This document shows positions 2,089-19,848 of a DNA stretch of 20,032 nucleotides, in pieces; the first letter of the stretch is position 1, and each line of letters starts with the position of its first letter. The notes under the pieces were generated by a model that had not been told where the DNA came from, searched no databases, and saw only the letters and a list, made by a program, of their open reading frames with translations. This DNA is from an uncultured Oscillospiraceae bacterium (lineage in GTDB: Bacteria; Bacillota; Clostridia; Oscillospirales; Oscillospiraceae): assembly GCA_934573945.1 (NCBI GenBank), contig CAKTMQ010000020.1, forward strand, positions 1-20,032, read 5' to 3'. The position numbers were made by a program, and so were the translations under genes.

Positions 2089-2109
2089 CTTCCGGGAACC
2101 CCGCGGAAG
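2089..2109 (-). promoter_or_regulatory. Small hairpin in the gap before the binding-protein gene
   Basis: Arms CTTCCG (2089-2094) and CGGAAG (2104-2109) flank a 9-base GC-rich loop, 39 bases upstream of the binding-protein start. No T-run follows, so it is not a classic terminator. It may be an mRNA processing or stabilising hairpin that raises binding-protein levels relative to the other importer parts (inference). Confidence 0.35.
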
Positions 2110-2135
2110 GCCGTGCACAAAAGAAACAAAGGGGC

Positions 2136-6034: not shown

Positions 6035-6071
6035 TTTTTACAGTCCTCCCGTATGCTTAGTCGATGATGGT

Positions 6072-6836
6072 TTACAGTTTCCAATCCAGCCTGCGCAGCT
6101 TCTCCTCAACAGGCCAGTAGGCATACTTGCTGTGGGAAACGCCCTGCAGGGCGCAGGCAATGGCATCATACAGCGCCGCACGGTAGGGCTCGATCACGGG
6201 AATATCCACGCCCCGCTTCTTCAGTCCCTCGGCCACGGCCTGCTGCACGGTGCACATACAGGTGCAGCCGAAGATCACCGCCCGGGCACCGTCCTCCTTG
6301 ACCGCCTTATAGGCTGCCTCGATGGTCTTTTCCGCCAGCATTGCCTCGTCGTCGTGCAGCGCCACCACCGGCATATTCACCACCGGGATCGACGCCAGCT
6401 GCGGCTCCATGCCGTACTTGCGCACATTCTCGCGGATACAGCGGTCGGCGTTTTCCAGAATGCCGATGACGGAGAAGCGGCCAGCCATCCGCGCCGCCAG
6501 AGAACAGGCGGACTGACAGGCACCTGTCACCGGGATCCGCACCAGCTCGCGGCACTCGGAGAGCGCCGGATCCAGGAAGCAGTCCATCACGATGGCATCA
6601 AAGCCGTCACGCTCGCCCTGGGCAGCCGCTTTCAGGATATAGGGCGCTGCCAGCGCGGAATCATAGAAGCACTCGATGGACTCGCTGCCGCCCTCTACGA
6701 TCCGTGTCTCCAGCTGCACCAGCCCGCCCAATTCGGTATCCAGCTGCTGCGCCAGCACCTTGCGGTCATTGACGGAGACCTCGATCCCTTCCGTGTATAT
6801 GTCCGGGACAATACTCAGGATCTTGATTTTTCTCAT
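6072..6836 (-). CDS. Asp/Glu racemase superfamily protein, hydantoin-racemase-like
   Basis: A 254-residue cytoplasmic protein. Two cysteines sit where the cofactor-independent racemases carry their catalytic pair: Cys86 in MDCFLDPAL (compare the 'CFgDPGL' of hydantoin racemases) and Cys191 in FGCTCM (compare 'GCaGM'). The LSIVPDI start and VIGILENADR segment also match the two-domain fold. Such enzymes invert the alpha carbon of amino acids, hydantoins or allantoin, or act as maleate/arylmalonate isomerases or decarboxylases. The hydantoin-racemase reading is favoured because a DUF917 protein lies in the same operon. It is the first gene of the left operon. The AGGAGGG site is close to the ATG at 6836. 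Fold assignment is strong; the exact reaction is inference. Confidence 0.85.
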   Translation of the reverse strand: MRKIKILSIVPDIYTEGIEVSVNDRKVLAQQLDTELGGLVQLETRIVEGGSESIECFYDSALAAPYILKAAAQGERDGFDAIVMDCFLDPALSECRELVRIPVTGACQSACSLAARMAGRFSVIGILENADRCIRENVRKYGMEPQLASIPVVNMPVVALHDDEAMLAEKTIEAAYKAVKEDGARAVIFGCTCMCTVQQAVAEGLKKRGVDIPVIEPYRAALYDAIACALQGVSHSKYAYWPVEEKLRRLDWKL

Positions 6837-6909: not shown

Positions 6910-7290
6910 CATTTTATCTTTGCGGTTCCTGTTCACTTTGTCTATTTCTTGACTAGGGATTGTTTCTTTTGCATATAACACAGCAAAAACCCCGCCGTAC
7001 AGCACGTGCGCCGCAGAGGTTTCTCCACTTGATACAGCAAAGGATACCACAGCTATCCCGTCAAAATCACCGGAAATTATATCCAATCTATGGCAGACTA
7101 CATAAGATTTTATCGGCGCTTTCGCCAACGGGTCTTACAAGCAGCCCATGCCGCCCCGACAGCAAAAACCGCCTGCGCAAAAATTACCAGTATGTACAAA
7201 CGCATATTGCGCGGCGCGCAGGGAAATCTAGCATTGCGATAAGCAATCAACAAGCAATCGCCGAATCAATCCAAGAAAGGAGATACAATC
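6910..7290. other. Intergenic stretch with no convincing gene
   Basis: About 380 bases between the left operon and the spore-protein gene. No reading frame has a good start, ribosome site and family motif together, and no tRNA-like fold was seen. The last 25 bases carry the AAGGAG site of the spore-protein gene. The promoter of that gene should lie here (forespore sigma-G is expected for this family), but I could not point to a convincing box. Confidence 0.5.
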
Positions 7291-7554
7291 ATGTCCAGCA
7301 AGAACACCAACAAGCTGAATGTTCCCGAGGCTCGTGCCGCTATGGATAAGTTCAAGATGGAGGCTGCATCCGAGGTGGGCGTTAACCTGAAGAACGGTTA
7401 CAACGGCGACCTGACCAGCCGCGAGGCCGGTTCCGTCGGCGGCCAGATGGTCAAGAAGATGACGCCCATACGAACGATGAGTTTTGTGAGGGCAGATCGG
7501 ACAAAGCCGGGACACGGGGTTAAGGTGCGGTACATAGCAGGAATCACAATATAA
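7291..7554 (+). CDS. Alpha/beta-type small acid-soluble spore protein with replaced C-terminus
   Basis: These DNA-binding proteins coat spore DNA and are degraded by the GPR protease at germination. Residues 10-57 match the family closely: NVPEARAAMDKFKMEAASEVGV (the GPR-cleavage region is KMEAASE) and GYNGDLTSREAGSVGGQMVKKM. An AAGGAG site precedes the ATG. Normally the protein ends about 10-20 residues after QMVKKM with a short helix. Here the frame instead runs into about 30 residues of unrelated sequence (TPIRTMSFVRADR... to RYIAGITI) before a stop at 7552-7554 and a terminator. The join is just after base 7461. Both conserved helix motifs survive, so the protein may still bind DNA. The tail suggests an insertion or deletion fused foreign sequence to the gene. 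Confidence 0.8.
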   Translation: MSSKNTNKLNVPEARAAMDKFKMEAASEVGVNLKNGYNGDLTSREAGSVGGQMVKKMTPIRTMSFVRADRTKPGHGVKVRYIAGITI

Positions 7555-7736
7555 GAAAACTCACGAGCCAACTTGCGGCTCGTGAGTTCTTTATTTCCTA
7601 TTATTGAAAAGCTACCAATCAAAAGCAACTGAATCAGCAAGAGAGCGAACGAGAAATCAATGAAAGGTGTTTTTAGGGTGACTGTAAATTGAATACGCCT
7701 AAGGAATGTGCGGATAGCCTTCAAAGAATCTTTCAT
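7398..7736 (-). CDS. Doubtful small membrane-protein ORF antisense to the spore-protein gene 3' end
   Basis: A 112-codon minus-strand frame opens at 7736 with a plausible ribosome site (AAGGGGGAA, about 6 bases upstream) and a good promoter at 7829-7857. The N-terminus is basic, then hydrophobic (FSFALLLIQLLLIGSFSIIG). However, the 7558-7588 hairpin followed by TTTTCTTAT lies inside the frame and should end transcription at about codon 60, and the 3' third is antisense to the spore gene. I do not recognise the family. It may be a decayed small gene, a regulatory RNA or a mobile-element remnant. Confidence 0.22.
   Translation of the reverse strand: MKDSLKAIRTFLRRIQFTVTLKTPFIDFSFALLLIQLLLIGSFSIIGNKELTSRKLAREFSYIVIPAMYRTLTPCPGFVRSALTKLIVRMGVIFLTIWPPTEPASRLVRSPL
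7558..7597 (+). terminator. Bidirectional intrinsic terminator after the spore-protein gene
   Basis: A perfect 12-bp stem, AACTCACGAGCC (7558-7569) with GGCTCGTGAGTT (7577-7588), has a 7-base loop and is followed by TCTTTATTT. On the other strand the same stem is followed by TTTTCTTAT, so it can stop both the spore gene and the convergent minus-strand transcript. Confidence 0.82.
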
Positions 7737-7828
7737 GTGTATTCCCCCTTCAACAATACGTTCTCGCTCGTTCGCTTTGAACCTCTTTCGGTCTGGTGAG
7801 TCAGGAAGGGGCTATCTGACCCAATTGC

Positions 7829-7857
7829 ATTATAGCATATTCATTACGAGTTTGCAA
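7829..7857 (-). promoter_or_regulatory. Strong sigma-A-like promoter, minus strand
   Basis: On the minus strand TTGCAA (7857-7852), a 17-base spacer, and consensus TATAAT (7834-7829). With the terminator at 7558-7588 it would define a short transcript of about 260-270 bases. The leader holds a 10-bp segment (CTCGTTCGCT, 7767-7776) that recurs inverted at 7644-7653. Match quality is high; expression is inference. Confidence 0.45.
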
Positions 7858-7869
7858 GAAAATGTAGTG

Positions 7870-8179
7870 ACAACGTCCGATAACATGGTATGCAATGAAA
7901 TGGGAGACCGAGCTCCAGAAGATAGTCAGCGGTGCATCAATGAGGGAACGCTGTTTCACCGGTAGTGCGGCAACGGTGATTACCAGACCGTAAGCTGTGG
8001 TGGTTCGGTATCAGCCGAGCTTCCACAGTACCGGCATCTCCGCGCGGATGGAACCGCTGCTCTAACGTCGTCTGTGTGACCCAGTAGAATCCAGTGACCA
8101 ACTGCTCGATGGTGGAGAACGTCACTAGATACAGCGGCAGGAACAGCCCCACCACCATGTAGGGGGATGGTATCACCAA
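7870..8179 (-). pseudogene. Remnant of a PAP2-family membrane phosphatase
   Basis: Two pieces in different minus-strand frames resemble a PAP2 (phosphatidic acid phosphatase) membrane protein of the kind common in Clostridia. The upstream piece (about 8160-8065) reads PSPYMVVGLFLPLYLVTFST, then IEQLVTGFYWVTQTTLEQ, like the N-terminal helix and 'YWVxxxPLD' region. The downstream piece (about 8000-7880) reads AYGLVITVAALPVKQRSLID, then APLTIFWSSVSHFIAYHVIG, like the C-terminal 'STVFxKQHSxxDV' block and final helix. The catalytic middle (SMPSLH-type motif) is absent, the frames differ by one base, and stops intervene. Total length is far below the usual 200 or more residues. It is therefore a decayed gene with an internal deletion. 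Assignment is by motif memory. Confidence 0.5.
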
Positions 8180-8265
8180 GCGGAGAAAATACTACCTTGA
8201 AAGCTGTGAATTATCTGCAGATCCTTTTGTGTGGAAATGGGGGAAAGTTTTTGTCGAAAGACTCG

Positions 8266-8308
8266 GGATGCCCTGACATCGGTCGTGAACGACGGTATCA
8301 GGGCATCC
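8266..8308 (-). terminator. Long hairpin downstream of the XRE-cupin regulator gene
   Basis: Arms GGATGCCCTGA (8266-8276) and TCAGGGCATCC (8298-8308) are perfect 11-bp inverses; a second small stem (GTCG/CGAC) can form in the loop. It starts 22 bases beyond the regulator stop at 8331. No strong T-run follows on the minus strand, so it may be a weak terminator or an mRNA-end hairpin rather than a standard intrinsic terminator. Confidence 0.5.
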
Positions 8309-8330
8309 TGCTTGTCATGAACAGGATATA

Positions 8331-8909
8331 TCAACTGTTCTGTCGGTTCCCCATCGGATAGGCACACTGGTCACAGACAGCGATATTGTGATAGGACCAA
8401 ACACTGACGCAGACATCAATGCTGGTTTTTCGGAAGCTATGAGCATTATTTGCCGGAATATACAGTGAATCACCTGGGTCCAGTGCATACCGGATGCCAT
8501 TGAGGCACATCTCCATACTGCCGCTGACAATAAAACCAAATTCATCTGCAATGTGCTGTTCGGACTGGTGTTCTGCATCATCGTAGACTGTCATGCAGAT
8601 GCTGCGGATGTTCCGCTGTCCCTCTGTAATGGCTTCGTAAAGAACGTGGCCCTTCTCTTCATAGATCATGCGTCGTTCATTTTTATGTACTACTAATGGA
8701 GTGTCGTTTAAATTTGACAGCAGTTCATTGAAAGTAATGTGCAGCGCAGCGCAAATTTTTTGCAAGCTGGCAATCGTTGGACTATTCAACCCTCTCTCCA
8801 GCATACTCAGGTAGCTGACGGATTGGTTTGTCTTCTCCGCCAATTGCTGTAAAGTTATCCCTTGCGATAATCGTATCTGTTTTACGGTATTTCCAATTTG
8901 TTCTTGCAT
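8331..8909 (-). CDS. XRE-family helix-turn-helix regulator with C-terminal cupin domain
   Basis: A 192-residue DNA-binding protein. Residues about 8-64 form an XRE/Cro-type HTH (QGITLQQLAEKTNQSVSYLSMLERG, then SPTIASLQKICAAL). Residues about 110-175 form a cupin_2 sensor domain (ADEFGFIVSGSMEM, then PGDSLYIPANNAHSF), the SinR/PuuR-like architecture. These regulators usually repress or activate a neighbouring catabolic operon in response to a small ligand held by the cupin. It is transcribed away from the right operon and shares its intergenic region, where palindromes lie; control of that operon and of itself is likely. A GAGGTAGGAGG site precedes the ATG. Family assignment is firm; the ligand is unknown. 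Confidence 0.93.
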   Translation of the reverse strand: MQEQIGNTVKQIRLSQGITLQQLAEKTNQSVSYLSMLERGLNSPTIASLQKICAALHITFNELLSNLNDTPLVVHKNERRMIYEEKGHVLYEAITEGQRNIRSICMTVYDDAEHQSEQHIADEFGFIVSGSMEMCLNGIRYALDPGDSLYIPANNAHSFRKTSIDVCVSVWSYHNIAVCDQCAYPMGNRQNS

Positions 8910-9003
8910 ACGGACCTCCTACCTCTGCCGCAGCGAGCGGCATGTCGCAATTATTTCTCAATGAAAGCGGAAAATACGCTGTGGGCCAGAACTCTTGCCT
9001 ATA

Positions 9004-9032
9004 TATTTACATATGAAACAGGCTTTTGTCAA
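9004..9032 (-). promoter_or_regulatory. Promoter of the XRE-cupin regulator gene
   Basis: On the minus strand: consensus TTGACA (9032-9027), a 17-base spacer, and TAAATA (9009-9004), about 95 bases before the regulator start. The spacer contains GTTTCATATG, whose TTTCATAT also forms the half-site of the 26-bp palindrome at 9124-9149, consistent with autoregulation (inference). Confidence 0.55.
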
Positions 9033-9123
9033 TGTCCGAAAGCCCTCGTGATCATCTTTTCATCAAAAATTTTCCCATTGCTATTCGGTAATCAGTGCAA
9101 CAGGTATATAGCGTTTACTTTTT

Positions 9124-9149
9124 AATTTTTTCATATATATGAAAAAATT
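9124..9149. promoter_or_regulatory. 26-bp perfect palindrome upstream of the right-operon promoter
   Basis: The left half AATTTTTTCATAT is followed immediately by its exact reverse complement ATATGAAAAAATT. It ends 14 bases before the -35 box of the right operon and lies about 90 bases from the regulator's own promoter. Most likely the binding site of the adjacent XRE-cupin regulator, with a dimer contacting the TTTCATAT halves (inference). Confidence 0.6.
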
Positions 9150-9163
9150 TTCGTCGAAGTGTA

Positions 9164-9192
9164 TTGACTTGTCCATTTGATTGTGGTATTTT
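9164..9192 (+). promoter_or_regulatory. Promoter of the right operon
   Basis: TTGACT (9164-9169), a 17-base spacer and TATTTT (9187-9192) form a good sigma-A promoter. It leaves a leader of about 155 bases before the lipoprotein gene at 9356, with one GAAAAATTTTC motif inside that leader. No known riboswitch fold was recognised in the leader. Confidence 0.6.
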
Positions 9193-9355
9193 AATTGTAA
9201 GACGTGCATAATTTGGCTGCTTGATCAAATATTTTTCTTTAAAAGGTTCATTATTTTTATTAGTCGTTAAATTTCGGTTCCTTCTGTTTTCTTTTTAATG
9301 AAAAATTTTCGGAGTCAATGCACAAAACACAGTAGATAGAGATTGGAGGAAGCAT

Positions 9356-10882
9356 ATGAAAAAACGCGCACTTGCATGGCTGCTGGCATTACTGACCATG
9401 CTCGCTCTGACCGCCTGCGGCGGCCAGACCACCCAGGACGATAATAGTTCCCGTACAGACGTTGTTATCGCCCAAACTGCCGATCCCTCATCCCTGGACC
9501 CTCATTATTGCTACGAGCTGACCGGTATGCGGATCTACCGCAATATGTTTGAAAGTCTCCTGAAATCCAACGCCGATGGAACCCTGTCCCCCTGTCTGGC
9601 TGAAAGCTACGAAATCTCCGAAGGCGGTATGGTCTACACCTTTAAGCTGCGTCAGGATGTTACCTTCCAGAACGGCGATCCTATGACCGCCGCCGACGTC
9701 AAGTACTCCTATGACCGTGCTTGCGGTTCCGCCTATTGTGCCGAGGCCGCTGAGCCCATCGACCACACTGACATTATCGATAATTACACCGTTGCTGTCA
9801 CAATGAAATACCCCTATGCGGCACAGTTGCCTTTCTTTGCTACTACATATCTGGCCATCGTAAATCAGAAGGTCGTGGACGCTTTGGGCGACAACTTCGG
9901 CATCGGCCCCGAGGGTGCCGGCACCGGTCCCTATACCTTTAGCAACTGGACGAAAGGCTCTCAGGTAGTCATGGTCCGCAACGAAAAGTATTGGGGCGAT
10001 CTGCCTGCCATGGCCCAGGTTACCTATCGCTGTATCACAGAGGCAGGCGCAGGTGATATTGCCGTCGAAACCGGCGATATCGACGTTTTCCTAGAGCCCT
10101 CTACCGCCGATATCCCTGCCCTGAAAGAGAACACCTCACTGGCCGTTTATCAGGGCGAGTCTAATTATATCGAATACCTAGCCTTTAACGTGACCGTGGC
10201 TCCCTTTGACAATCTGAAAGTCCGTCAGGCCGTTGCCAAGTGCTTTGATAAGCGAGACGTGGTGACTATTGCCGTAGACGATCTGGGCGGTGTCTTATCT
10301 GCTTCTTATACCAACGCCACCCTGTTTGGCGCAAATACCGACATCCCTCTAATTGAAAAGGATATCGAAGGCGCAAAGCAGCTGCTGGCCGAAGCCGGCT
10401 ACCCCGACGGTTTCACCTGCTCTATCACTGCCATTGACGGCGCACGCAAAAAGTCCGCCCAGGTAATTCAGTCCGGCCTGAAGGAAATCGGCATTGATGC
10501 GCAGATCGATATCATGGAGAGCGGCGCTTTCTATGACGCCGCCGGCAAGGGTAACGTAGAAATGTGCCTGGGCGGTATGACCACCCTGGCCGCCGATGCC
10601 GACCCGCTGTTGTTCTGCTGCTTCTCCTCTCAGAACATCGGCACTTACAACCTGTCCCAGTATTCTAACGCCGAGATCGACAATCTAATTACCGAGTCCC
10701 GCGCCAACTCTGACACGGAATCTCGCCGGCAGCAGCTGAAGAACATCCAAACCATCGTCAGCGATGATCTTCCCTCTGTGCCGCTGTACCTGCGGAGCGT
10801 GTTGATCGTCGCCAACGCAAACCTGAAAGGCGTTGAGGTCGAACCCAACAACATTTTGGACGTGGCAAAGCTGAGCTGGTAA
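9356..10882 (+). CDS. Solute-binding lipoprotein of a dipeptide/oligopeptide (family 5) ABC importer (right operon)
   Basis: A 508-residue lipoprotein. The signal runs MKKRALAWLLALLTMLALTAC with the lipidated cysteine at residue 21. The mature part has the SBP family 5 pattern: SSLDPHYCYELTGMRIYRNMF near the start, AESYEISEGGMVYTFKLRQ and VTFQNGDPMTAADVKYSYDR. Length is normal. A GGAGG site lies about 6 bases before the ATG. It is only distantly similar by eye to the left-operon lipoprotein, so the two importers probably take different substrates. A strong hairpin with a T-run follows directly, so this gene is likely made in excess over the downstream permeases. Substrate is probably a peptide or N-substituted imino acid, inferred from the amidohydrolase and AcnX genes downstream. 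Confidence 0.94.
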   Translation: MKKRALAWLLALLTMLALTACGGQTTQDDNSSRTDVVIAQTADPSSLDPHYCYELTGMRIYRNMFESLLKSNADGTLSPCLAESYEISEGGMVYTFKLRQDVTFQNGDPMTAADVKYSYDRACGSAYCAEAAEPIDHTDIIDNYTVAVTMKYPYAAQLPFFATTYLAIVNQKVVDALGDNFGIGPEGAGTGPYTFSNWTKGSQVVMVRNEKYWGDLPAMAQVTYRCITEAGAGDIAVETGDIDVFLEPSTADIPALKENTSLAVYQGESNYIEYLAFNVTVAPFDNLKVRQAVAKCFDKRDVVTIAVDDLGGVLSASYTNATLFGANTDIPLIEKDIEGAKQLLAEAGYPDGFTCSITAIDGARKKSAQVIQSGLKEIGIDAQIDIMESGAFYDAAGKGNVEMCLGGMTTLAADADPLLFCCFSSQNIGTYNLSQYSNAEIDNLITESRANSDTESRRQQLKNIQTIVSDDLPSVPLYLRSVLIVANANLKGVEVEPNNILDVAKLSW

Positions 10883-10893
10883 ATTCGCCTGCA

Positions 10894-10933
10894 GACCGAG
10901 CGAGGGACCTCCCTCGCCCGGTCTTGCTTTTTT
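10894..10933 (+). terminator. Intrinsic terminator/attenuator between lipoprotein and permease genes
   Basis: Stem GACCG-A-GCGAGGGA with TCCCTCGC-C-CGGTC (10894-10923, one internal mismatch, two-base loop), followed by TTGCTTTTTT. It lies between the first and second genes of the right operon. Partial read-through would give high binding-protein and lower permease expression, a common arrangement in importer operons. Confidence 0.8.
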
Positions 10934-10963
10934 CAGATAGAACACCTATAGGGAGAACGCATT

Positions 10964-11893
10964 ATGATACGCTATATTGTCAAACGTCTGGTCATGATCA
11001 TCCCCACGCTTCTGCTGGTCACGTTGATCGTCTTCTCCATCATGTCCTTGACCCCCAGCGATCCCGGCCGCTTGATCCTCGGCCCCAGTGCTCCGCAAGC
11101 AGCCGTAGACCAGCTCAACGATGAGTTCGGGTACAATGACCCGTTTTTTGTCCGCTACTTCAATTTTCTGAAGGGATTGCTCCATGGCGACCTTGGCACT
11201 TCTTATCGAACCGGCCAACCCGTAGCCAAAGAGCTCTTCCAACGCTTCCCCGTAACTCTGCGCCTGGCTGTTATGTCCATTATACTCACCTCATTTATCG
11301 GGATCCTTTTTGGCATCATATCCGCCGTAAAACAGTACTCATTGTTGGACTATGTCACCTCTGTGTCAGCCATTCTCATGTCCGCTATTCCTGTGTTCTG
11401 GTTCGGTCTAATGATGATGCTGATCTTTTCTCTAAAACTCAGGTGGCTGCCCTCCAGCTATCTGGGCGACTGGAAAAGCTATATACTTCCCGTCATCGCT
11501 ATGTCGCTGCCCTATTCCGGTCTTGTGCTGCGTATGACCCGTTCCGCTATGCTGGAAACGATTCGTCAGGATTACATCCGTACCGCCCGGGCAAAGGGTG
11601 CCTCCGAAAAACAAATCGTGCTGAAGCATGCTTTGAAAAACGCATTACCGCCTGTTGTCACCGTATTGGGTACCGTCTTTGGTCTGTCTTTGGGCGGCGC
11701 TGTACTGACAGAAACCGTCTTCACCATCCCCGGCGTAGGCGCGTTCATTGTCAACGCGATCAAAACCAAGGATATCCCCCAGGTGATGGGCGCAATCACG
11801 TTTTTGTCCGCCATGTTCTGCCTTGTCGTTCTGGCCGTAGACCTGCTGTACGCCTTTATCGACCCGCGAATCAAGGCCCTTTACAAGAAGTAA
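10964..11893 (+). CDS. ABC importer permease, DppB type (right operon)
   Basis: A 309-residue membrane protein. It starts MIRYIVKRLVMIIPTLLLVTLIVFSIMSL with TPSDPGRLILG, the standard first helix and GDP-type motif of DppB. The coupling loop is clear (QDYIRTARAKGASEKQIVLK, HALKNALPP), followed by the ETVFTIPGVG motif and a last helix ending in YAFIDPRIK. The ATG follows GGGAG. Shorter than the left-operon counterpart (338 residues) but within family range. Pairs with the DppC-type permease encoded 14 bases downstream. Confidence 0.95.
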   Translation: MIRYIVKRLVMIIPTLLLVTLIVFSIMSLTPSDPGRLILGPSAPQAAVDQLNDEFGYNDPFFVRYFNFLKGLLHGDLGTSYRTGQPVAKELFQRFPVTLRLAVMSIILTSFIGILFGIISAVKQYSLLDYVTSVSAILMSAIPVFWFGLMMMLIFSLKLRWLPSSYLGDWKSYILPVIAMSLPYSGLVLRMTRSAMLETIRQDYIRTARAKGASEKQIVLKHALKNALPPVVTVLGTVFGLSLGGAVLTETVFTIPGVGAFIVNAIKTKDIPQVMGAITFLSAMFCLVVLAVDLLYAFIDPRIKALYKK

Positions 11894-11907
11894 AAGGAGG
11901 ACAATTT

Positions 11908-12795
11908 ATGAATCAGTCTGCAAACGAACGGCCAGTCCCCAAAAAGAAGCAAGGCCAGTTTATCCAGGTGTGGAAACGCTTCAGACGCAGCAAAACCGCG
12001 ATGGTCGCCTTGATCATTATCATCCTATTGATTCTGACGGCCATTTTTGCCGATGTTCTGGTGGATTATGACACGCAGGTAGTCGCTCAGAACAGCGCCG
12101 ACCGCCTCATGAAACCCTGTGCACAGCACCTTTTGGGCGCTGATCAGTATGGCCGGGATATTCTGGCCCGTATCGTCTACGGATCTCGCATGTCTCTGAC
12201 CATCGGCATCGGTACCACGATCATATCCTTGCTGTTAGGCGCGATACTGGGCTCTATCGCCGGCTTCTTCGGCGGCAAGCTGGATGCCGTCATCAGCCGC
12301 ATTGTGGATGCGCTAATGTGCATTCCCGCCACGCTGATGGCACTGTGCATTATTGCGGCGCTGGGTTCCGGTCTCATCAACATCATGATCGCCATTACCA
12401 TTTCCCAAGTACCAGCCTTCACCCGTTTGATCCGCTCAGTCATCATGACACTGCGAGACAAAGACTACGTAGAAGCCGCCCGTGCCTGCGGCACCAGCAA
12501 TCTACGGATCATCACCCGCCACGTACTGCCCAACGCATTGGGTCCCATCATCGTTCAAGGCACCATGTCCATGGCCGATATGATGTTGACTGCCGCCGGT
12601 CTTGGGTTCCTAGGAATGGGTATCGCGCCGCCCATGCCGGAATGGGGCACCATGCTCTCAGAAGGCCGCGAGTTTATCCGCAGCGCTTCTCACCTGGTCA
12701 CTTTCCCTGGCATCGCCATCGTTCTGGCCGCCCTGTGCTTTAATCTGCTGGGTGACGGCCTGCGCGACGCGCTGGACCCCAACCTGAAGAATTGA
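11908..12795 (+). CDS. ABC importer permease, DppC type (right operon)
   Basis: A 295-residue permease. A basic cytoplasmic N-terminus (RPVPKKKQGQF, WKRFRRSKTAM) precedes the first helix. LLGADQYGRDILARIVYGSR opens the transport domain, the coupling loop is KDYVEAARACGTSNLRIITR followed by HVLPNALGP, and the typical GLGFLGMGIAPPMPEWGTML segment follows. I take the ATG at 11908, which has AAAGGAGG 7 bases upstream; the frame is open further upstream, but there it only shadows the DppB gene. Forms the channel with the DppB-type subunit. Confidence 0.94.
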   Translation: MNQSANERPVPKKKQGQFIQVWKRFRRSKTAMVALIIIILLILTAIFADVLVDYDTQVVAQNSADRLMKPCAQHLLGADQYGRDILARIVYGSRMSLTIGIGTTIISLLLGAILGSIAGFFGGKLDAVISRIVDALMCIPATLMALCIIAALGSGLINIMIAITISQVPAFTRLIRSVIMTLRDKDYVEAARACGTSNLRIITRHVLPNALGPIIVQGTMSMADMMLTAAGLGFLGMGIAPPMPEWGTMLSEGREFIRSASHLVTFPGIAIVLAALCFNLLGDGLRDALDPNLKN

Positions 12796-12816
12796 CAGAA
12801 AGGAGCGGATGACATC

Positions 12817-13824
12817 GTGCAAAAAAATGACCTGCTCGAGATACAGGATCTCTCTGTTGCCTATCAAACCACCGAAGAAACCGTTTACGCACTCAACTCC
12901 GTCGACCTAAAACTAGAGGCCGGAAAAACTCTCGGCCTCGTCGGCGAAACCGGCGCAGGAAAGACCACGCTCGCTCTGTCTATCATGCGCCTTTTACCTC
13001 AGACTACCGGTCAGATTCTCTCCGGCTCTATCCAATTCCACGGCGAAGATCTTCTTCAGAAAAAAGAGGCTATCATGCGCGCTATCCGCGGTGAGCAGAT
13101 CTCCATGATTTTTCAGGACCCCATGACCAGTCTGAATCCAGTGCTGCCAGTGGGCGCGCAAATTCAAGAAGCATTGGCTCTGCATAACCACGAAGGCAAG
13201 AGCAAGCAGGACCTGGAAAAGAAAACCGAGGAACTGCTTGAATTGGTGGGCATTCCCGCCAAGCGTAAAGAGGAGTACCCCCATCAGTTTTCCGGCGGTA
13301 TGAAACAGCGTGTAGTCATCGCCATCGCCTTGGCCTGCAATCCCGAACTTCTTATCGCCGACGAACCAACTACTGCCCTAGATGTAACCATCCAAGCGCA
13401 GGTATTGACCATGATGGATCAGCTAAAGCGAAAGCTGGGCACCGCCATGATCCTGATCACCCATGATTTTGGTATCGTAGCCGAGACATGTGACAGTGTA
13501 TGTGTCATGTACGCCGGCGAGATCGTGGAAAGCGGCAGCGTAGAAGATATCTTCAACGGGCAGCGCCACCACCCCTACACGCTGGGATTGTTCCGCTCCC
13601 TGCCCAGTATTGAAAGCAAAGCGCAGCGCTTGATCCCTATCGAAGGTCTGATGCCGGATCCCACAAACTTGCCTCAGGGTTGTAAATTCCACCCCCGCTG
13701 CCCCAACTGTACAGATCGCTGCCGCCAGCAGGCACCCGCCAAGGTTGTAGATGGAGAGCATATGATCCGGTGCCATTTATTCGCAGAAAAGGAGGCACCC
13801 CATGGAACCGATTCTGAAAGTTGA
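12817..13824 (+). CDS. ABC importer ATPase, DppD/OppD type (right operon)
   Basis: A 335-residue ATPase with a GTG start at 12817, preceded by AAAGGAG. Walker A GETGAGKT (43-50), Q-loop Gln100 ([10 protein letters not shown]), C-loop FSGGM (158-162), Walker B LLIADE (178-183) and switch His216 (ITHDFGI) are all intact. The C-terminal oligopeptide motif [15 protein letters not shown] is present. It overlaps the start of the next ATPase by 23 bases. Probable heterodimer partner of that gene product. Confidence 0.94.
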
Positions 13825-14755
13825 ACATCTGAAAAAATGCTTCAAGACTTCCTCCGGCACGCTTCATGCCGTAGATGACATCAATCTCTCCATTCAGAGG
13901 GGCGAAACCCTAGGCGTAGTAGGTGAGTCCGGCTGTGGTAAATCCACTTTTGGCCGAGTGATCTTACGACTTATTCCCGCCACCTCTGGAAAGGTCTACT
14001 TCGAGGGCAACGATATTCTGCAATATGACCGCAGGCAAATTCAGAAACTTCGCAGCGATATGCAGATCATTTTTCAAGACCCTTACGCCAGCCTAAACCC
14101 CCGCATGACAGTCAGCGAACTGATCGCAGAACCAATGATCGTCAACAAGACCTGCAAAAGTAAAGCGGAACTCTATCAGAAAGTTCGCTCTATGATGGAT
14201 ACGGTCGGACTGGCTTCGCGTCTAGAAAACGCCTACCCCCACGAACTCGACGGCGGTCGCCGACAGCGTATCGGCGTAGCCCGCGCTCTGGTCCTAGACC
14301 CGAAATTCATCGTCTGTGACGAGCCCGTTTCCGCATTGGACGTCAGCATTCAAGCTCAGATCCTAAATCTGCTGATGGATCTGCAGGACGAATTCGGTTA
14401 TACCTATGTATTCATCACACACGACCTCTCTGTCGTCAAGCACATCTCCGACTGCATTGCCGTTATGTATCTGGGACAGTGTATAGAATACTGTGAGTCC
14501 GAAGAGTTGTTCCGCAATCCCTGCCACCCCTACACTAAGGCGCTGCTGGATGCTATCCCCATCCCGTCTTTGACCAGCCGCGGAAAGGAACGCACTCTGA
14601 TCCGCGGCGAGATCACCAGCCCCATCAACCCCAAGCCCGGCTGTCGATTTGCTTCCCGCTGCGAGTACTGCACCGAGCGCTGTACTCAGGGTGATATTCC
14701 CATGGTCGATGTTGGCAACGGGCACCTGGTGTCCTGCGTACGAATGGCAAAGTAG
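13802..14755 (+). CDS. ABC importer ATPase, DppF/OppF type (right operon)
   Basis: A 317-residue ATPase. Walker A GESGCGKS at 41-48, Q-loop Gln92 ([10 protein letters not shown]), Walker B FIVCDE at 169-174, switch His207. The C-loop is LDGGR (149-153): Asp replaces the conserved Ser of LSGGQ, a variant I have seen in Clostridia OppF proteins and probably specific to the asymmetric second site. C-terminal cysteine motif [15 protein letters not shown]. The AAAGGAGG site lies inside the end of the preceding gene, so the two are translationally coupled. Last importer subunit before the enzyme genes. Confidence 0.93.
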
Positions 14756-14795
14756 CCATCTTCCGATCTATTGTCACAGAGAAAGGAGAAATATT

Positions 14796-15974
14796 ATGAT
14801 CATTCGAAATGCCCGGTTGCTGCCCGAATTGACAGACGGTTACAGTTCTTCCATGGGCGATATTATCATCGAAGGTAACCGCATAGCCGCCATTACCGAA
14901 CCCGGAAAGCGTCCTCCTTGCCACGCCGAATTTAACGCAGCAGGGCGCACGGTACTGCCCGGGCTAATCGACATGCACCTGCACTTTTCCGTCAGCGGCA
15001 AGGACGTACTGGTTGATAATTTCCAACCCACTCCCGTCCGCACGCTGGAAGCTTACCGTTTCGCGCTGGATACGCTGCGGGCAGGCTTTACCACCGTCCG
15101 CGATGTCGGCGACGTAAAGAACATCGCCGTAGCTCTGCGGGACGAGATCGAGGCCGGCCGTCTAATAGGCCCCCGCATCAAAGCTGCCGCCGCCATTCTG
15201 ACCCCCACAGAGGCCGGCAACGATTATTTTGCCGAGATGTACGATGAATGCAACTCTGTAGATGAAGTTCGCGCAGCCTGTCGGCGGCAGTTGTCAGCCG
15301 GTGGTGACTTTATCAAAGTCATGGCTTCCGGCGCCATCAGCAACCCTAGCGGCCAACCCGGCATGACCATCGAGACTGAAGAAGAGGTTCGAGAAATGGT
15401 ACGCTGCGCCAAACATCACAACACCTACGTGGCCGCTCACTGCCACGGTGCCGACTCTATCGAAATGTGTCTGCGCGCAGGAGTATATACCATCGAACAT
15501 GCCACCATACTCAGCGAGCGGGCACTGGAGGAACTGAAAAAAGGCCAATCCTATATGATCCCAACCTTAGCATGTGCCGAGAAAATTCACAGCACCACGG
15601 CTGGCTTTGCAGATTATATGGCAAAAAAGGAAGGGGAACTGCTGGAGCAGCGCAACCATTGGATCAAACGCGCCTATCAGGAAGGTCTAAAAATGGGCTT
15701 TGGCACCGACTGCGGAACCACCGACAACTGGCACGGCACCAACGCCGACGAATTGATCGCACGAGCAGAAATCGCCGGCATGGCCCCTATCGACACGCTG
15801 CTGCAGGCCACCCGGAATAGTGCGGAAATCATGGGGCTCGATCATGACATCGGTTCCATTGCCGCTGGAAAGTTCGCCGATCTGGTGATCGTAGATGGCG
15901 AACCGGAAAAAGACATCCACCGTGTCAGAAATCACGTATACGCTGTATTCAAAGGCGGCGTATTCGTCCATTGA
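14796..15974 (+). CDS. Metal-dependent amidohydrolase, prolidase/imidazolonepropionase-like
   Basis: A 392-residue cytoplasmic TIM-barrel hydrolase of the amidohydrolase superfamily. The binuclear-type ligand set is complete: HLH (His61, His63), a probable carboxylated lysine (Lys174 in FIKVMASGA), His215 in AHCHG, His235 in TIEHAT and Asp305 in GTDCG. The N- and C-terminal strands (GDIIIEGNRIAAI; IAAGKFADLVIVDGEP) form the usual flanking beta-sandwich. This subgroup includes Xaa-Pro/Xaa-Arg dipeptidases and related cyclic amidases. The ATG at 14796 follows AAAGGAG. Set between importer and AcnX, it probably hydrolyses the imported compound to free the substrate of AcnX, for example an N-acyl or peptidyl hydroxyproline (inference). 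Superfamily is certain; substrate is not. Confidence 0.92.
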   Translation: MIIRNARLLPELTDGYSSSMGDIIIEGNRIAAITEPGKRPPCHAEFNAAGRTVLPGLIDMHLHFSVSGKDVLVDNFQPTPVRTLEAYRFALDTLRAGFTTVRDVGDVKNIAVALRDEIEAGRLIGPRIKAAAAILTPTEAGNDYFAEMYDECNSVDEVRAACRRQLSAGGDFIKVMASGAISNPSGQPGMTIETEEEVREMVRCAKHHNTYVAAHCHGADSIEMCLRAGVYTIEHATILSERALEELKKGQSYMIPTLACAEKIHSTTAGFADYMAKKEGELLEQRNHWIKRAYQEGLKMGFGTDCGTTDNWHGTNADELIARAEIAGMAPIDTLLQATRNSAEIMGLDHDIGSIAAGKFADLVIVDGEPEKDIHRVRNHVYAVFKGGVFVH

Positions 15975-16001
15975 CCCCGTTCAAGAAAGGTCAGGTAATA
16001 C

Positions 16002-16316
16002 ATGCCTCACATTTTTGTAAGAGGAATACCGCAGGAAGAGCTGCAGTCTTTATCCTCCCCCATCAAAGAGCTCGTCACAACCATCTCGCAGGCTGACCCT
16101 TCCTACGTGAAGATCTTTCACGACCCCATGTGCCGCATGGATGCGCCCGAAGACGTGGCAATCGATGTCTATTGGATGCACCGTCCCCAGGATCTATGTG
16201 ACCGAATGGCTAACGCGCTGACAGAACTGTTCCAGTCCCGCGGTGTCTCTTTCGTCCAGGTCACTTTTACAGAGTTCCCCGGAAACCTATTTTATGAAAA
16301 CGGCATACATTACTGA
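16002..16316 (+). CDS. DUF1904 protein, tautomerase/MIF-like fold
   Basis: A 104-residue protein starting MPHIFVRGIPQEELQSLSSP, which matches the DUF1904 family. That family has the tautomerase/MIF fold, in which Pro1, exposed after methionine removal, acts as catalytic base. Pro follows Met here, so an isomerase or tautomerase role is possible. The C-terminal VQVTFTEFPGNLFYENGIHY is the usual last strand pair. It lies 27 bases after the amidohydrolase and 57 before AcnX, clearly in the operon. It could act on an enamine or 2-oxo acid produced by AcnX dehydration, which would need tautomerising (inference). Confidence 0.78.
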   Translation: MPHIFVRGIPQEELQSLSSPIKELVTTISQADPSYVKIFHDPMCRMDAPEDVAIDVYWMHRPQDLCDRMANALTELFQSRGVSFVQVTFTEFPGNLFYENGIHY

Positions 16317-16373
16317 CAGCGCGCGGCCTTTACCGGCCAGCCCCAGCAAAATTCGTTACATATTGGAGGAATC

Positions 16374-17660
16374 ATGGTTAAGCTGACTGAATACGAACAG
16401 CGGATGCTGCGCGGCGAAATGGGGCCGTTCAAGCAGTGTGCACTGCAAAAAATTGTAAATTACGCAAACGTTCTCGGAGCCAAGGAGTTGTGCACCGTAA
16501 CAAAAGCCACGGTCTACCTGGGTTTCCATCCTTATCTGGAGGCCGCAGGTTCAAATGACTACGACGAGATCTTTTCTAAGATGGTCCTGTGCAGCGATAA
16601 AACCATCAAGCTAGGCAAGTTCAGTGATGAATGTTTTTCTCAGACCTGTGTCGGCGCCTGTGACCACTATTGCTATGAACCACTGGGATTGTCCCGTGAA
16701 GTCTTCGAGACAAACCGCGCTTTTCTTGAAAAAACAAAAGAAGCTGGTGTCAGTATCGCCGGCAGCTGTACACCTTACCTGAGCGGATGGATCCCTCTAC
16801 GGGGTGAGCATTTTGTTTCCACAGAATCCAGCAATATCATCATGGCTAACTCTTTATTCGGCGCTTGCGGAAATGCGGACGGCCTAGAGGCCGCCGCTTG
16901 GTCCGCTATCTGCGGCAGAACGCCTCTATGGGGCAATCATATCAAAGAAAACCGCTATGCCACTGATGTATTTGAAATCCAATGCAAAAGTGACACGATT
17001 CTGGACTGGGACATCATTGGCCTGACACTTGGCCGGATGCTGCCCGGCAACAGTCGTCCGGTATTGTGTGGAAATTTCCAGCGCCCCGACATCAACAAGC
17101 TCAAGCGCTGCTTTGGTTCTCTGGCAACCACCAGTGGCTGCGAGATCTGTCACATCGTCGGCTGTACCGCCGAAGCCGGCACACTAGAGGAAGCGTTGGG
17201 CGGCCATGAGCCCTCAGGCCACTATGTCATCACCCAGCAGGATTATGACACAGCCTTGGCATCGGTCTGCGATACTGGCAGCGCCGATATTCAGCTGGTC
17301 ATCCTCGGCTGCCCTCACTTCTCTTTGGAGGAACTGCGGGATATTTCCCAGTTGTTGAAGGGCAAAAAAGTCGCCCCTGGCGTAAATCTTCAACTGTGGA
17401 CGGATATAACGATTCAGCAGCTGGCAGAAGTCAACGGCTACGCCCAGATCATTCGCGATTCTGGTGCTCACCTGCTTAACAGCGCTTGTCCTTTGGTCTG
17501 CGGCCGCAGCGCCCTCGACATGATCACAACCGCCGTAGCGACAGACGGCGCCAAACAGGCACATTATCTGCACAGCGACCTGGTAGATCGCAAGATCTTC
17601 TACGGAAGCACCGAGCGTTGCATCCAGGCTGCCATCGCAGGAAGATGGGAGGAAAACTGA
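16374..17660 (+). CDS. Aconitase X (AcnX) catalytic large subunit, divergent
   Basis: A 428-residue Fe-S dehydratase-type subunit (formerly DUF521). Family marks: MLRGEMGPFKQCALQKIV near the N-terminus, CTPY (132-135), ESSNIIMANSLFGA (151-164), GCPHFSLEEL (312-321), and a C-terminal AKQAHYL then ERCIQAAIAGRW. Candidate cluster ligands are Cys132, Cys313, Cys372 and Cys376. Characterised bacterial AcnX enzymes dehydrate cis-3-hydroxy-L-proline; archaeal ones dehydrate phosphomevalonate. Oddities: the usual GARTNREG loop reads GACGNADG, the usual DTCPV reads SACPLVC, and the protein is cysteine-rich overall. The substrate may therefore differ. A TTGGAGGA site precedes the ATG. The small subunit starts 2 bases after its stop. 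Confidence 0.88.
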   Translation: MVKLTEYEQRMLRGEMGPFKQCALQKIVNYANVLGAKELCTVTKATVYLGFHPYLEAAGSNDYDEIFSKMVLCSDKTIKLGKFSDECFSQTCVGACDHYCYEPLGLSREVFETNRAFLEKTKEAGVSIAGSCTPYLSGWIPLRGEHFVSTESSNIIMANSLFGACGNADGLEAAAWSAICGRTPLWGNHIKENRYATDVFEIQCKSDTILDWDIIGLTLGRMLPGNSRPVLCGNFQRPDINKLKRCFGSLATTSGCEICHIVGCTAEAGTLEEALGGHEPSGHYVITQQDYDTALASVCDTGSADIQLVILGCPHFSLEELRDISQLLKGKKVAPGVNLQLWTDITIQQLAEVNGYAQIIRDSGAHLLNSACPLVCGRSALDMITTAVATDGAKQAHYLHSDLVDRKIFYGSTERCIQAAIAGRWEEN

Positions 17661-17662
17661 CT

Positions 17663-18088
17663 ATGTCCATCACGATTTTTGGTCGCCCCGCTTTTCCCGG
17701 TATAGCCGCTGGTGAAGCCATCGTTTGTCCTGACAGCATTCAAGGATGGTCCGGTGTCAGCGACAAGACCGGTATCATCATTGAAAACGGGAACCCCGAA
17801 AAAGGCAAATGTATTGCCGGAAAGATCCTGGCCCTTCCTTACGGAAAAGGCTCCACCGGTTGGTCCGGGCATTTCCATTCCGCATCTGTAGCGGGCTTTA
17901 CACCAGCGGGCTGGCTGTTTCCCACCATGGACTCACGCACAGGCGTAGCCACCGCCGTACTGGAGATCCCTACGGTGACAGATTTCCCCACCGATGTAGA
18001 CTTGTTTCAGCTTATCGAATCCGGCGATTATATTGAAATTGACGGGAATACAGGAAAAGTTACCATCACCAAACAACACCAGCAATAA
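17663..18088 (+). CDS. Aconitase X (AcnX) small swivel-domain subunit
   Basis: A 141-residue protein (formerly DUF126), the mobile beta/alpha swivel domain that closes over the AcnX active site. Seen: GRPAFPGIAAGEAIV at the start, GWSGVSDKTGIIIENGNPEKG (the family's 'SFWGGVDPxTG' region), AGKILALPYGKGSTGWS (the serine-rich 'GRGSSTGS' substrate loop, here GKGSTGWS), and a C-terminal VDLFQLIESGDYIEIDGNTG barrel closure. The GGAGG ribosome site is inside the large-subunit gene, so the two are translationally coupled. Separate small and large genes are the two-subunit AcnX arrangement. Last gene of the right operon. Confidence 0.9.
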   Translation: MSITIFGRPAFPGIAAGEAIVCPDSIQGWSGVSDKTGIIIENGNPEKGKCIAGKILALPYGKGSTGWSGHFHSASVAGFTPAGWLFPTMDSRTGVATAVLEIPTVTDFPTDVDLFQLIESGDYIEIDGNTGKVTITKQHQQ

Positions 18089-18315: not shown

Positions 18316-18360
18316 AGCAGCCCCTTCTTTTCAGGTAGAAAGAAGGGGCTGCTCAGTTTT
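18316..18360 (+). terminator. Strong intrinsic terminator between convergent units
   Basis: Perfect 14-bp stem AGCAGCCCCTTCTT (18316-18329) with AAGAAGGGGCTGCT (18340-18353), a 10-base loop, then CAGTTTTT. It should end the right operon. The same stem could also stop minus-strand transcripts, but there the following run is not T-rich. Confidence 0.85.
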
Positions 18361-18505: not shown

Positions 18506-19318
18506 TCAAAGCTGCTTCTGCCGCAGCAGAATGGTAGTATACACTCTGTCTGTGATGAGTCCCCAATCCCGCTGTGGGTAGTATCGCAGCAGCGGCTCCA
18601 GCCTCGCAAAGATATCCTCTCTCGACAGCTTGGGCATGTATAGCTGCTTACCGTACAGCGCCCGGACTGTGCCCGCCTGCCGGTTGAATGTCGTGCTGAA
18701 CGGGCGGGCACACTGCGCCGCGATCAGAGCTTTCGGCTCAATATCCACGGGAGCTGTCCGCGTATTGGAGAGCAGTCCTGCGCCGTTATCAAAGATGGGG
18801 CAATAATCGTATTTACCATCACACTCCAGAACCGCGATATTGTTCAAATGGCGGTCATCGTTCAGGAACAGTGCGTCTACCTCGAACAGTAGGGTCAGAT
18901 ACTGCGGAAAAAGCTCCAAGCCCGTCAGCTCCGCCGTAGCATCGGCCAGATAGGCAATGCGCTTCCTGTCACTGGATTGCCGCGACAGAATATCCCGAAG
19001 AGACACTTCACTCTCCCTTTTGTACAGGTGGCTCAGCGTGATAATGGACTGACCCGGCAGCAGAAAGTTTTCACTGCTACACCCTGTCCGTTCGATGCCA
19101 TGGGCGGTAATGCGTTCCATTCGGTAGCGGGTAAAGCGGAACGGGTAGTCCTTCTCACAGTTACTGAGTTCCAGCAGTTGTGAGATCAACGTCTCCGCCA
19201 AGGCTTCATAGCCAAACTGATCCAGTTTGTACCAACGATTTCCCTCTACCCACTTTTCCTGATTGCCTTTGGAAGAGGTTTCGGCAATCTTTTCGTTTGT
19301 CACAAAATGCAGGCTCAT
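18506..19318 (-). CDS. HipA/CtkA-like serine/threonine kinase, probable toxin
   Basis: A 270-residue kinase using the ATG at 19318, which overlaps the stop of the preceding gene by four bases (ATGA); a longer frame upstream of this start has no support. Seen: Lys31 in NRWYKLD as candidate ATP-binding lysine, then YEALAETLISQLLELS; catalytic-loop motif LFLNDDRHLNN (Asp155, Asn159 or Asn160); metal-binding IFDNGAGLL (Asp177). This is the C-terminal kinase core of the HipA/CtkA group, without the N-terminal HipA domain of E. coli. HipA toxins phosphorylate translation factors such as GltX; targets of this branch are unknown. Coupled behind an AbrB-like gene it is probably the toxin of a two-gene module, though a non-toxin signalling role is possible. 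Confidence 0.83.
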   Translation of the reverse strand: MSLHFVTNEKIAETSSKGNQEKWVEGNRWYKLDQFGYEALAETLISQLLELSNCEKDYPFRFTRYRMERITAHGIERTGCSSENFLLPGQSIITLSHLYKRESEVSLRDILSRQSSDRKRIAYLADATAELTGLELFPQYLTLLFEVDALFLNDDRHLNNIAVLECDGKYDYCPIFDNGAGLLSNTRTAPVDIEPKALIAAQCARPFSTTFNRQAGTVRALYGKQLYMPKLSREDIFARLEPLLRYYPQRDWGLITDRVYTTILLRQKQL

Positions 19319-19848
19319 TCCACTACCTCGATCCACTGCTGGTCTTCCGCCATGCGGCCCTGTGTGCGCTTGATAATCTCCCACGGGTCATACTCGTCCA
19401 ATCCCAAGGTTTCCAGATATTCACGGATACCCTCACGCTGTCGGGGAACGCACCGTTCTTCCAAAAAGGCCATCAGATCGGCCCAGGAGGGAAGCCGATT
19501 CTTTCCAAATGCCGTTTTTACCATCTGGCCGGTATGGTTCTCAGCACAAAGGGTATGATCCGTAAAGTCCACCACGATCGTCGTACAGAGCGTATCACCA
19601 TTCCAGAATTTCAGTGTTTTTAAGCTGTGGGACTGTGCCGCCTTTTCGTCGTAAAATTCCTCGATAGTAACGACTCTAGTAATCATGATCTGATGCCCGT
19701 CAAAGGCCAGTTCGGCCTCTCGCTTCTCGTCGGTGATCCCCATGGTCTGAAGCCAGCGGGACGGCAGTGTTACCTTGTGGGTTTTCGCACCGGCACCTGC
19801 TGTTCCTCCGGCTGTACTGCTGTTGATCCGTGCCAAACGTCTTTCCAT
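19315..19848 (-). CDS. AbrB/SpoVT-like DNA-binding protein, probable antitoxin
   Basis: A 177-residue protein. After a Gly/Ala/Ser-rich N-terminus, residues about 22-57 (KTHKVTLPSRWLQTMGITDE, AELAFDGHQIMITR) have the swapped-hairpin AbrB/MazE pattern 'kvtlPs.wl..lgi...'. The C-terminal two thirds (TLKFWNGDTLCTTIVVDF, a GKNRLPSWADLMAFLEERC block, then REYLETLGLDEYDPWEIIKR) resemble nothing I can name. This part is probably what contacts the kinase. It is the first gene of the minus-strand pair, overlapping the kinase by four bases. A GAGGTG ribosome site precedes the ATG. As in other modules, it probably represses its own promoter. Confidence 0.75.
   Translation of the reverse strand: MERRLARINSSTAGGTAGAGAKTHKVTLPSRWLQTMGITDEKREAELAFDGHQIMITRVVTIEEFYDEKAAQSHSLKTLKFWNGDTLCTTIVVDFTDHTLCAENHTGQMVKTAFGKNRLPSWADLMAFLEERCVPRQREGIREYLETLGLDEYDPWEIIKRTQGRMAEDQQWIEVVE

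Follow-up and report, generated by a model that had tools for sequence, protein, structure and literature searches.

We analysed a 20,032-nucleotide stretch of contig CAKTMQ010000020.1 from an uncultured Oscillospiraceae bacterium (the whole stretch is called the window here), and within it the operon at positions 9356 to 18088 that ends in the two subunit genes of an aconitase X (AcnX) enzyme. Its nine genes are all intact, lie on the + strand in the order SBP (solute-binding protein), DppB, DppC, DppD, DppF, amidohydrolase, DUF1904, AcnX large subunit and AcnX small subunit, and form a single unit (Table 1). Spacing within the operon ranges from 2 to 81 bp, with an overlap of DppD and DppF, a Shine-Dalgarno-like sequence lies 5′ of every start, and a terminator-like hairpin follows the last gene. 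An earlier note on this DNA had listed the same genes as one transcription unit, and its extent was right for all of them; it had omitted the divergent XRE-cupin regulator gene on the - strand, which is conserved with the system.

Table 1. Genes and sequence elements of the window, with the basis of each assignment
Feature	Positions	Strand	Basis
SBP_bac_5, family-5 solute-binding lipoprotein of Dpp/Opp importer	9356-10882	+	PF00496, 275.6 bits
Importer permease DppB	10964-11893	+	PF00528, PF19300
Importer permease DppC	11908-12795	+	PF00528, PF12911; start is the ATG at 11908
Importer ATPase DppD	12817-13824	+	PF00005, PF08352; GTG start
Importer ATPase DppF	13802-14755	+	PF00005, PF08352
Amidohydrolase, binuclear-type ligand set, COG1228 dipeptidase/carboxypeptidase kin	14796-15974	+	PF01979, 150.4 bits
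DUF1904, tautomerase-fold, Met-Pro start	16002-16316	+	PF08921, 54.2 bits (cut-off 24.1)
AcnX large subunit	16374-17660	+	PF04412, 305.1 bits
AcnX small (swivel) subunit	17663-18088	+	PF01989, 73.6 bits
Intrinsic-terminator-like hairpin 3′ of operon	18316-18353	+	16 pairs, 8 G-C, then CAGTTTTTCA; consensus match only
XRE-type HTH and cupin regulator, divergent from operon	8331-8909	-	PF01381, PF07883
26-bp palindrome AATTTTTTCATATATATGAAAAAATT, candidate operator between regulator and operon	9124-9149		arms of 13
Asp/Glu-racemase-family gene	6072-6836	-	PF01177
Second complete Dpp importer	380-6034	-	
S-Me-THD/DUF917-type gene, start only	1-339	-	PF06032

Relatives were collected by scanning one genome per species with the AcnX large subunit, which gave 15 loci with proteins 46% to 72% identical, full-length except for one fragment (L015). 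In a maximum-likelihood tree of 40 AcnX large subunits, that of the window falls with 19 others into one group (support 100/100), from which the remaining 20 are separate, and within this group it joins L001 and L003 in a sub-clade (support 100/99). Counts below refer to these 20 clade loci and to 19 other AcnX loci that served as controls, among them named-plasmid kin (157 records), which had distant AcnX only. Left out of the clade count were L005, another contig, on which AcnX and its neighbours are those of L004, and L015, whose AcnX is a fragment of 130 amino acids; L058 was kept outside the control count and carries no DUF1904, RidA, BCCT, MttB or XRE-cupin labels. Unless otherwise stated, neighbours were counted within 6 kb of AcnX. 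The contigs of the window, L001, L007, L008, L011, L012, L013, L014, L050, L069 and L078 end within this distance on at least one side, as do control contigs including L053, L056, L057, L059, L060 and L062, so absences at these loci are weak. Genome searches, in which the counts include the centre genome, gave further loci. For the large subunit, 4 of 398 genomes in the phylum of G001 had a match at E < 1e-180, two samples of 250 genomes, each from a different family, contained 2 and 3 genomes with a match at E 1e-100 or better, and 1 of 394 genomes of one order, the centre genome itself, had a match at E 1e-70. The clade AcnX gene is rare and patchy. One locus, L069, has tandem AcnX subunit pairs at 8173 to 11548, one of the window clade and one distant.

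The linkage of DUF1904 to AcnX is conserved in this clade, beyond chance. DUF1904 was found beside AcnX in 5 of the 20 clade loci and in none of the 19 other AcnX loci. The DUF1904 gene occurs in 17 of 348 genomes of the phylum; 15 of the 16 loci outside G001 were fetched (the sixteenth has internal stops), with about 8 kb on each side where the contig allowed it, and none of these 15, which encode proteins 17% to 32% identical to that of the window, has AcnX beside it, although some contigs are short (4.5 kb for L104, 7.6 kb for L107). Thirteen of the 18 clade genomes were searched for DUF1904, and the intact gene was present in four, each time at the AcnX locus. DUF1904, AcnX and the XRE-cupin gene are retained throughout the sub-clade, and the importers differ: Dpp in the window, BCCT plus MttB in L001 and TRAP in L003. 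DUF1904 therefore goes with AcnX rather than with the importer. We regard this retention across an importer swap as the strongest evidence that DUF1904 works with AcnX. A broken DUF1904 with stops was seen in genome G371 (L076, C9:160966-161187), whose AcnX locus lacks DUF1904, as if the gene had been lost.

That DUF1904 has a tautomerase fold with proline after methionine, as the earlier note had read from the sequence, agrees with an AlphaFold2 model (pLDDT 92.3). Normalised to the query, TM-scores of the model were 0.87 to 4m1a and 0.90 to 1u9d, both DUF1904 structures, and, among the matches listed, 0.71 to 0.83 to T. vaginalis MIF chains and 0.65 to 0.78 to CaaD/4-OT-like chains, cis-CaaD being one of those matched. 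Both Pro1 and Arg61 are present in 20 of 20 DUF1904 sequences. The predicted fold and N-terminal proline are shared with the tautomerase superfamily (4-OT, cis-CaaD, MIF, CHMI, MSAD), but sequence similarity to 4-OT-like chains reaches an E of about 0.1 only, and DUF1904 was placed in no characterised subgroup. A search of 5.8 billion proteins, which reaches close kin only, gave 25 relatives of the window type (49% to 98% identical).

Active-site residues of AcnX, with their roles taken from PMC8184944, were mapped through profile alignments to PDB sequences and a joint alignment of the 40 large subunits and their small subunits. For residues 47 to 85 of TkAcnX, the archaeal type IIb mevalonate-5-phosphate (MVA5P) dehydratase, the large-subunit places were assigned via AtAcnX and the equivalences in PMC8184944; small-subunit places are direct. 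The alignment is borne out by L114, the fused protein of S. meliloti, in which position 313 is occupied by Ser and position 374 by Cys, in line with the published type I pattern. The window enzyme has the two-subunit form, with separate PF04412 and PF01989 genes and a gap of 2 bp. Present in 20 of 20 clade members are the type-II cluster cysteines Cys132, Cys313 and Cys372 (Cys110, Cys283 and Cys342 of TkAcnX), the small-subunit general base Ser64 (Ser62 of TkAcnX), Glu151, Ser152 and Lys394. With AtAcnX, a cis-3-hydroxy-L-proline (C3LHyp) dehydratase, the window enzyme shares the superfamily, the domain plan, the general-base serine and the equivalents of Glu292, Ser293, Lys530 and Tyr534 (Glu151, Ser152, Lys394 and Tyr398); its third cluster cysteine is the type-II Cys313 and not the Cys510 of C3LHyp dehydratases. 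These residues lead us to expect that the window AcnX dehydrates a 3-hydroxy acid.

The substrate contacts give a different picture. In AtAcnX the amine and ring are contacted by Asp203, Thr72, Ile206 and Trp35, as described in PMC8184944. Only the ring-contacting Trp35 is kept, as small-subunit Trp29 in 20 of 20 clade members, and it is not diagnostic: several control AcnX have it, and L064 and L066, which hold the Asp motif, have Phe. The amine-binding Asp203 is replaced by Tyr48 in the window (Tyr or Phe in 16 of 20 clade members, Gly or Cys in the other four), Thr72 by Gly66, and Ile206 by Phe51 (Ala in 14 of 20); none of the 20 has Asp at the first place or Thr at the second. The residue set for MVA5P, Ala47, Ser50 and Asn79 of the large subunit with Leu27 and Val64 of the small one, is replaced by Tyr48, Phe51, Cys92, Trp29 and Gly66, and the window has a catabolic-type bacterial operon, in contrast to the isoprenoid synthesis served by TkAcnX. 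Because neither landmark set is kept, we do not read the enzyme as a C3LHyp or MVA5P dehydratase. Types IIc to IIf, listed in PMC8184944 as uncharacterised, are likewise bacterial two-subunit forms without C3LHyp or MVA5P landmark residues, and the window clade may be one of them. The pocket loops of the window (TVYLGFHPY), L001 (TVYFGYHPY) and L003 (TVYFGAHPY) are nearly alike, so these three enzymes probably share a substrate core that is delivered by three front ends. In the large subunit, Cys87, Cys92 and Cys96 make up a Cys-x4-Cys-x3-Cys motif, all of which is found in 15 of the 20 clade proteins. Cys92 takes the place of the active-site Asn233/Asn79 of known AcnX enzymes, and the motif may be an extra metal site or a redox switch.

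Beyond the single locus of the window, the enzyme most often beside the clade AcnX is RidA, found in 8 of 20 clade loci compared with 1 of 19 other AcnX loci. Arg104 and Glu118, the catalytic positions of RidA, are invariant in the eight proteins. AcnX acting on an alpha-amino-beta-hydroxy acid would yield an enamine of the kind that RidA acts on. The two enzymes would therefore go well together, and the repeated presence of RidA speaks for a reaction that forms an enamine; RidA is described as hydrolysing reactive enamines and imines (PMC7311433, PMC4433059, PMC5619798). A betaine-type transporter (BCCT) and an MttB-family methyltransferase are also frequent, each in 7 of 20 clade loci, compared with no BCCT and two MttB relatives (25% to 26% identity) in the 19 other AcnX loci. 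The BCCT models matched scored below cut-off. The clade MttB proteins form three groups, 31% to 39% identical to each other, and their nearest solved structures (9yce, called a glycine betaine methyltransferase, and 2qne) do not fix the betaine. Corrinoid protein genes were counted in 2 of 20 clade loci, TRAP parts in 3, Dpp operons in 3 and 2-oxoacid:ferredoxin oxidoreductase (Por) genes in 2 (L001 and L002); a 24% DctM match in L009 and an other-strand importer in L010 were excluded from the TRAP and Dpp counts. Thirteen of the 20 loci have a BCCT, TRAP or Dpp importer in the 6-kb range around AcnX. In L003, the TRAP and DUF1904 locus, a single-chain serine-dehydratase-type protein (PF03313, 11730 to 13316) is encoded directly 3′ of the AcnX pair. 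Distant AcnX types (29% to 31% identical) at L059, L060, L063 and L068 adjoin corrinoid-protein or MttB relatives, and the link of AcnX to corrinoid demethylation may be wider than the window's clade.

The importer of the operon is a complete Opp/Dpp type, with a family-5 SBP, two permeases (one with OppC_N) and two ATPases with oligo_HPY; the NCBIfam models matched by the SBP all have cut-offs far above its score. Its DppD and DppF are 63% to 67% identical to those of the AcnX operons L009 and L077 (67% to L077 and 63% to L009 for DppD), and DppD is 37% to 39% identical to the ATPases of the window's second importer. L009 encodes on one strand SBP, DppB, DppC, DppD, DppF, DUF885, COG1228, the two AcnX subunits and a second COG1228 hydrolase, and L077 combines Dpp, RidA and AcnX. 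The DUF885 protein inside the L009 run (7005 to 8747) is a candidate enzyme of the same pathway. In the window amidohydrolase the ligand set is complete (H61-x-H63, K174, H215, H235 and D305), as the earlier note had it; HxH, Lys, His, His and Asp are the binuclear metal ligands of the amidohydrolase superfamily. Its fold family and ligand set are those of the COG1228 prolidases and carboxypeptidases, and its PDB kin (2qs8, 3mtw, 3feq) include prolidases. Specificity is left broad because the best NCBIfam model, Xaa-Pro dipeptidase NF051886, was matched at 252.7 bits, about half the required score of 500, and because 3mtw is called an L-arginine carboxypeptidase.

Relatives of the XRE-cupin protein (37% to 57% identity) are encoded in 7 of the 19 other clade loci when the whole fetched stretch is counted (8 of 20 with the window), and in none of the 19 other AcnX loci. 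This conservation across the clade assigns the gene to the system. The protein probably senses the substrate, and it may act at the candidate palindromic operator. When the 446-base spacer between regulator and operon was shuffled 2000 times with its dinucleotides kept, no shuffle reached this palindrome. A related palindrome, TTCATATATGAA, adjoins the regulator in L002. The idea of a conserved operator was set aside, as L002 was the only locus among those examined with a similar palindrome.

We propose, with a confidence that falls somewhat short of even, that the window carries a substrate-induced catabolic operon built around an uncharacterised two-subunit AcnX clade. The Dpp-type importer would take up a small peptide or N-acylated compound (step 1), and the amidohydrolase would cleave its amide to give a beta-hydroxy amino or imino acid, possibly N-methylated (step 2). 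AcnX would dehydrate this acid to an enamine, with Ser64 of the swivel subunit taking the C2 proton and the iron-sulfur cluster (Cys132, Cys313, Cys372), together with Glu151 and Lys394, taking the C3 hydroxyl (step 3). The N-terminal proline of DUF1904 would then catalyse the proton shift from enamine to imine (step 4), and the imine would become a 2-oxo acid, with RidA in many sister loci and, in the window organism, with a RidA encoded elsewhere or unaided (step 5). Steps 1 and 2 follow from family membership and are moderately supported by recurrence, step 3 follows from the conserved catalytic residues, and steps 4 and 5 are suggested by the fold, Pro1 and conserved linkage of DUF1904 and by RidA in the sister loci. 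The best reading is that AcnX dehydrates a beta-hydroxy amino acid, or an N-methyl form of it, to an enamine that DUF1904 and/or RidA resolve. Cyclic 3-hydroxyproline-like acids (Trp29 is kept) and linear carnitine-like acids (BCCT, MttB, an aromatic residue for Asp) are both possible substrates. The earlier interpretation is thus partly supported: the conserved linkage is real, the specific biochemistry that had been attached to it is not supported, and this broader reading replaces it.

Several observations weigh against the proposed pathway. DUF1904 is found in only 5 of 20 clade loci, and those of L002 and L007 are only 30% to 31% and 41% to 42% identical to that of the window; neither Pro1 nor the predicted fold is proof of tautomerase activity. 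The window has no RidA gene. At L010, L011, L012, L014, L052 and L069, none of DUF1904, RidA, MttB and amidohydrolase was seen in the 6 kb around AcnX, and four of these six contigs end within this distance on one or both sides; the clade thus has no single partner that it cannot do without. Tyr398 is conserved in only 16 of the 20 proteins. The linkage of importer and amidohydrolase to AcnX, also claimed before, stands in so far as Dpp with AcnX recurs in L009 and L077 and Dpp with COG1228 and AcnX in L009; the amidohydrolase itself is only 29% to 32% identical to those of L009 and L050 (the latter just outside 6 kb of AcnX), and the 63% to 67% identity of the ATPases is a modest excess, because a DppD fragment of L010, from an importer outside the AcnX operon, is already 54% identical to the window protein. 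A single common AcnX substrate is not proved, since one demethylation of a betaine by MttB would give a different amine from peptide cleavage.

The betaine-type neighbours raise an alternative that we consider unlikely, in which the clade AcnX would be a CoA-free dehydratase of carnitine-like 3-hydroxy-4-aminobutyrates. At the loci with BCCT and MttB, the tautomerase-fold protein would catalyse an allylic shift of the demethylated crotonate, giving a 3,4-enamine for RidA to hydrolyse to succinic semialdehyde and an amine; in the window, the operon would supply this AcnX from a precursor that is acylated or peptide-bound. Proteins with 4-OT-like folds catalyse allylic shifts. The frequencies of BCCT and MttB beside the clade AcnX argue for this route, and the Tyr or Phe that replaces the amine-binding Asp in 16 of 20 members would suit a methylated ammonium. 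An MttB homologue, MtcB, demethylates carnitine according to PMC8604678, and the other characterised type-II AcnX substrate is a linear 3-hydroxy acid according to PMC8184944. The window, however, contains no BCCT or MttB gene, the three MttB groups are too far apart to imply one betaine, and the Por genes near AcnX in L001 and L002 and the serine dehydratase of L003 point to 2-oxo and alpha-amino acids. We are equally doubtful of a version that would be a new catabolic route of anaerobic bacteria, in which AcnX carries out the CoA-free dehydration of an amino acid or a betaine with a beta-hydroxyl, for example carnitine or demethylated carnitine, and DUF1904 and RidA then give an oxo compound, with betaine import and MttB demethylation, TRAP import, or peptide import and the amidohydrolase as interchangeable front ends. 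Hydroxyectoine was considered only: BCCT and TRAP would fit this substrate and MttB does not.

It is improbable that the operon follows the cis-3-hydroxyproline route, which the earlier note had transferred to it, with AcnX as C3LHyp dehydratase and DUF1904 performing the shift from Delta2- to Delta1-pyrroline-2-carboxylate. AcnX of types I and IIa is known for the dehydration of cis-3-hydroxy-L-proline (PMC5144071, PMC8184944), the amidohydrolase has prolidase kin, and Trp29 is in place. The transfer does not hold up at the substrate contacts, where only the non-diagnostic Trp is kept of the four AtAcnX residues, nor in the gene contexts. The H[IV]DGC motif of C3LHyp enzymes is confined to 4 of the 19 controls (L064, L066, L067 and L114), and three of these four loci adjoin proline racemase genes: L064, with an OCD-family gene, L066, with a glycyl radical enzyme, and L114, with two such racemase genes. 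Within the stretches fetched, relatives of the control OCD or glycyl radical gene were found in none of the 20 clade loci (E 1e-5), and two proline racemase queries gave only one distant match there, in L010 (E 1e-5; Ldh_2-type reductases were not searched for); DUF1904, RidA and XRE-cupin genes are the neighbours instead. The reductase of the known pathway had been noted as missing, and no OCD-type reductase was found in the 20 kb window. The large subunit scored 165 bits against the NCBIfam C3LHyp dehydratase model, for which the cut-off is 700, though the model describes a fused protein and can hardly be reached by one subunit. The route also leaves the BCCT and MttB contexts unaccounted for.

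A further alternative, that importer and amidohydrolase serve ordinary peptide scavenging while DUF1904 and AcnX have a separate function on the shared transcript, would suit the free variation of importers among clade loci, the lack of close-identity conservation of the amidohydrolase and the fact that Dpp importers and COG1228 hydrolases are common, but we hold it to be a poor prospect, as one-strand runs of Dpp and AcnX recur in L009 and L077 with DppD and DppF closer to those of the window (63% to 67%) than the second importer or the L010 fragment, L009 adds two COG1228 hydrolases and a DUF885 protein to its run, and an importer of one kind or another accompanies AcnX in 13 of 20 clade loci.

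The remainder of the window holds other genes. Positions 1 to 6836 form a separate run on the - strand that includes the second importer and suggests hydantoin-like or amino-acid catabolism. This left half was rejected as a part of the pathway: it lies on the opposite strand, and the fetched loci contain no relative (E 1e-4) of its racemase gene or its DUF917 fragment. A gene at 7291 to 7554 resembles, by look, an alpha/beta-type small acid-soluble spore protein (NCBIfam gave no match) and would fit a spore-forming clostridial host; the host is probably anaerobic. Two overlapping genes on the - strand beside the operon end (18506 to 19848) were named HipA-like by look alone. Scans of the window for tRNA genes and for Rfam families (gathering threshold) found nothing.

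Judged by titles and abstract beginnings, the papers on the aconitase X enzyme among the matches listed deal with C3LHyp dehydratase, MVA5P dehydratase or archaeal isoprenoid synthesis, and the bacterial AcnX branches that lack the known landmark residues were left functionless in the structural classification of PMC8184944. DUF1904 is named, in the literature searched, only in a Vibrio genome comparison (by its title). No link of AcnX to MttB appeared among the matches listed, by title, term counts or abstract beginning, and no description of the window's gene set was found at this level in the literature on AcnX, DUF1904 and MttB betaines. The window locus and its relatives provide a small, testable gene set, the AcnX pair, DUF1904 and the regulator, tied to enamine and imine chemistry. 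Should the betaine-linked loci use this chemistry as well, AcnX would count among the enzymes that determine what becomes of quaternary amines in anaerobes, a matter of medical interest through trimethylamine.

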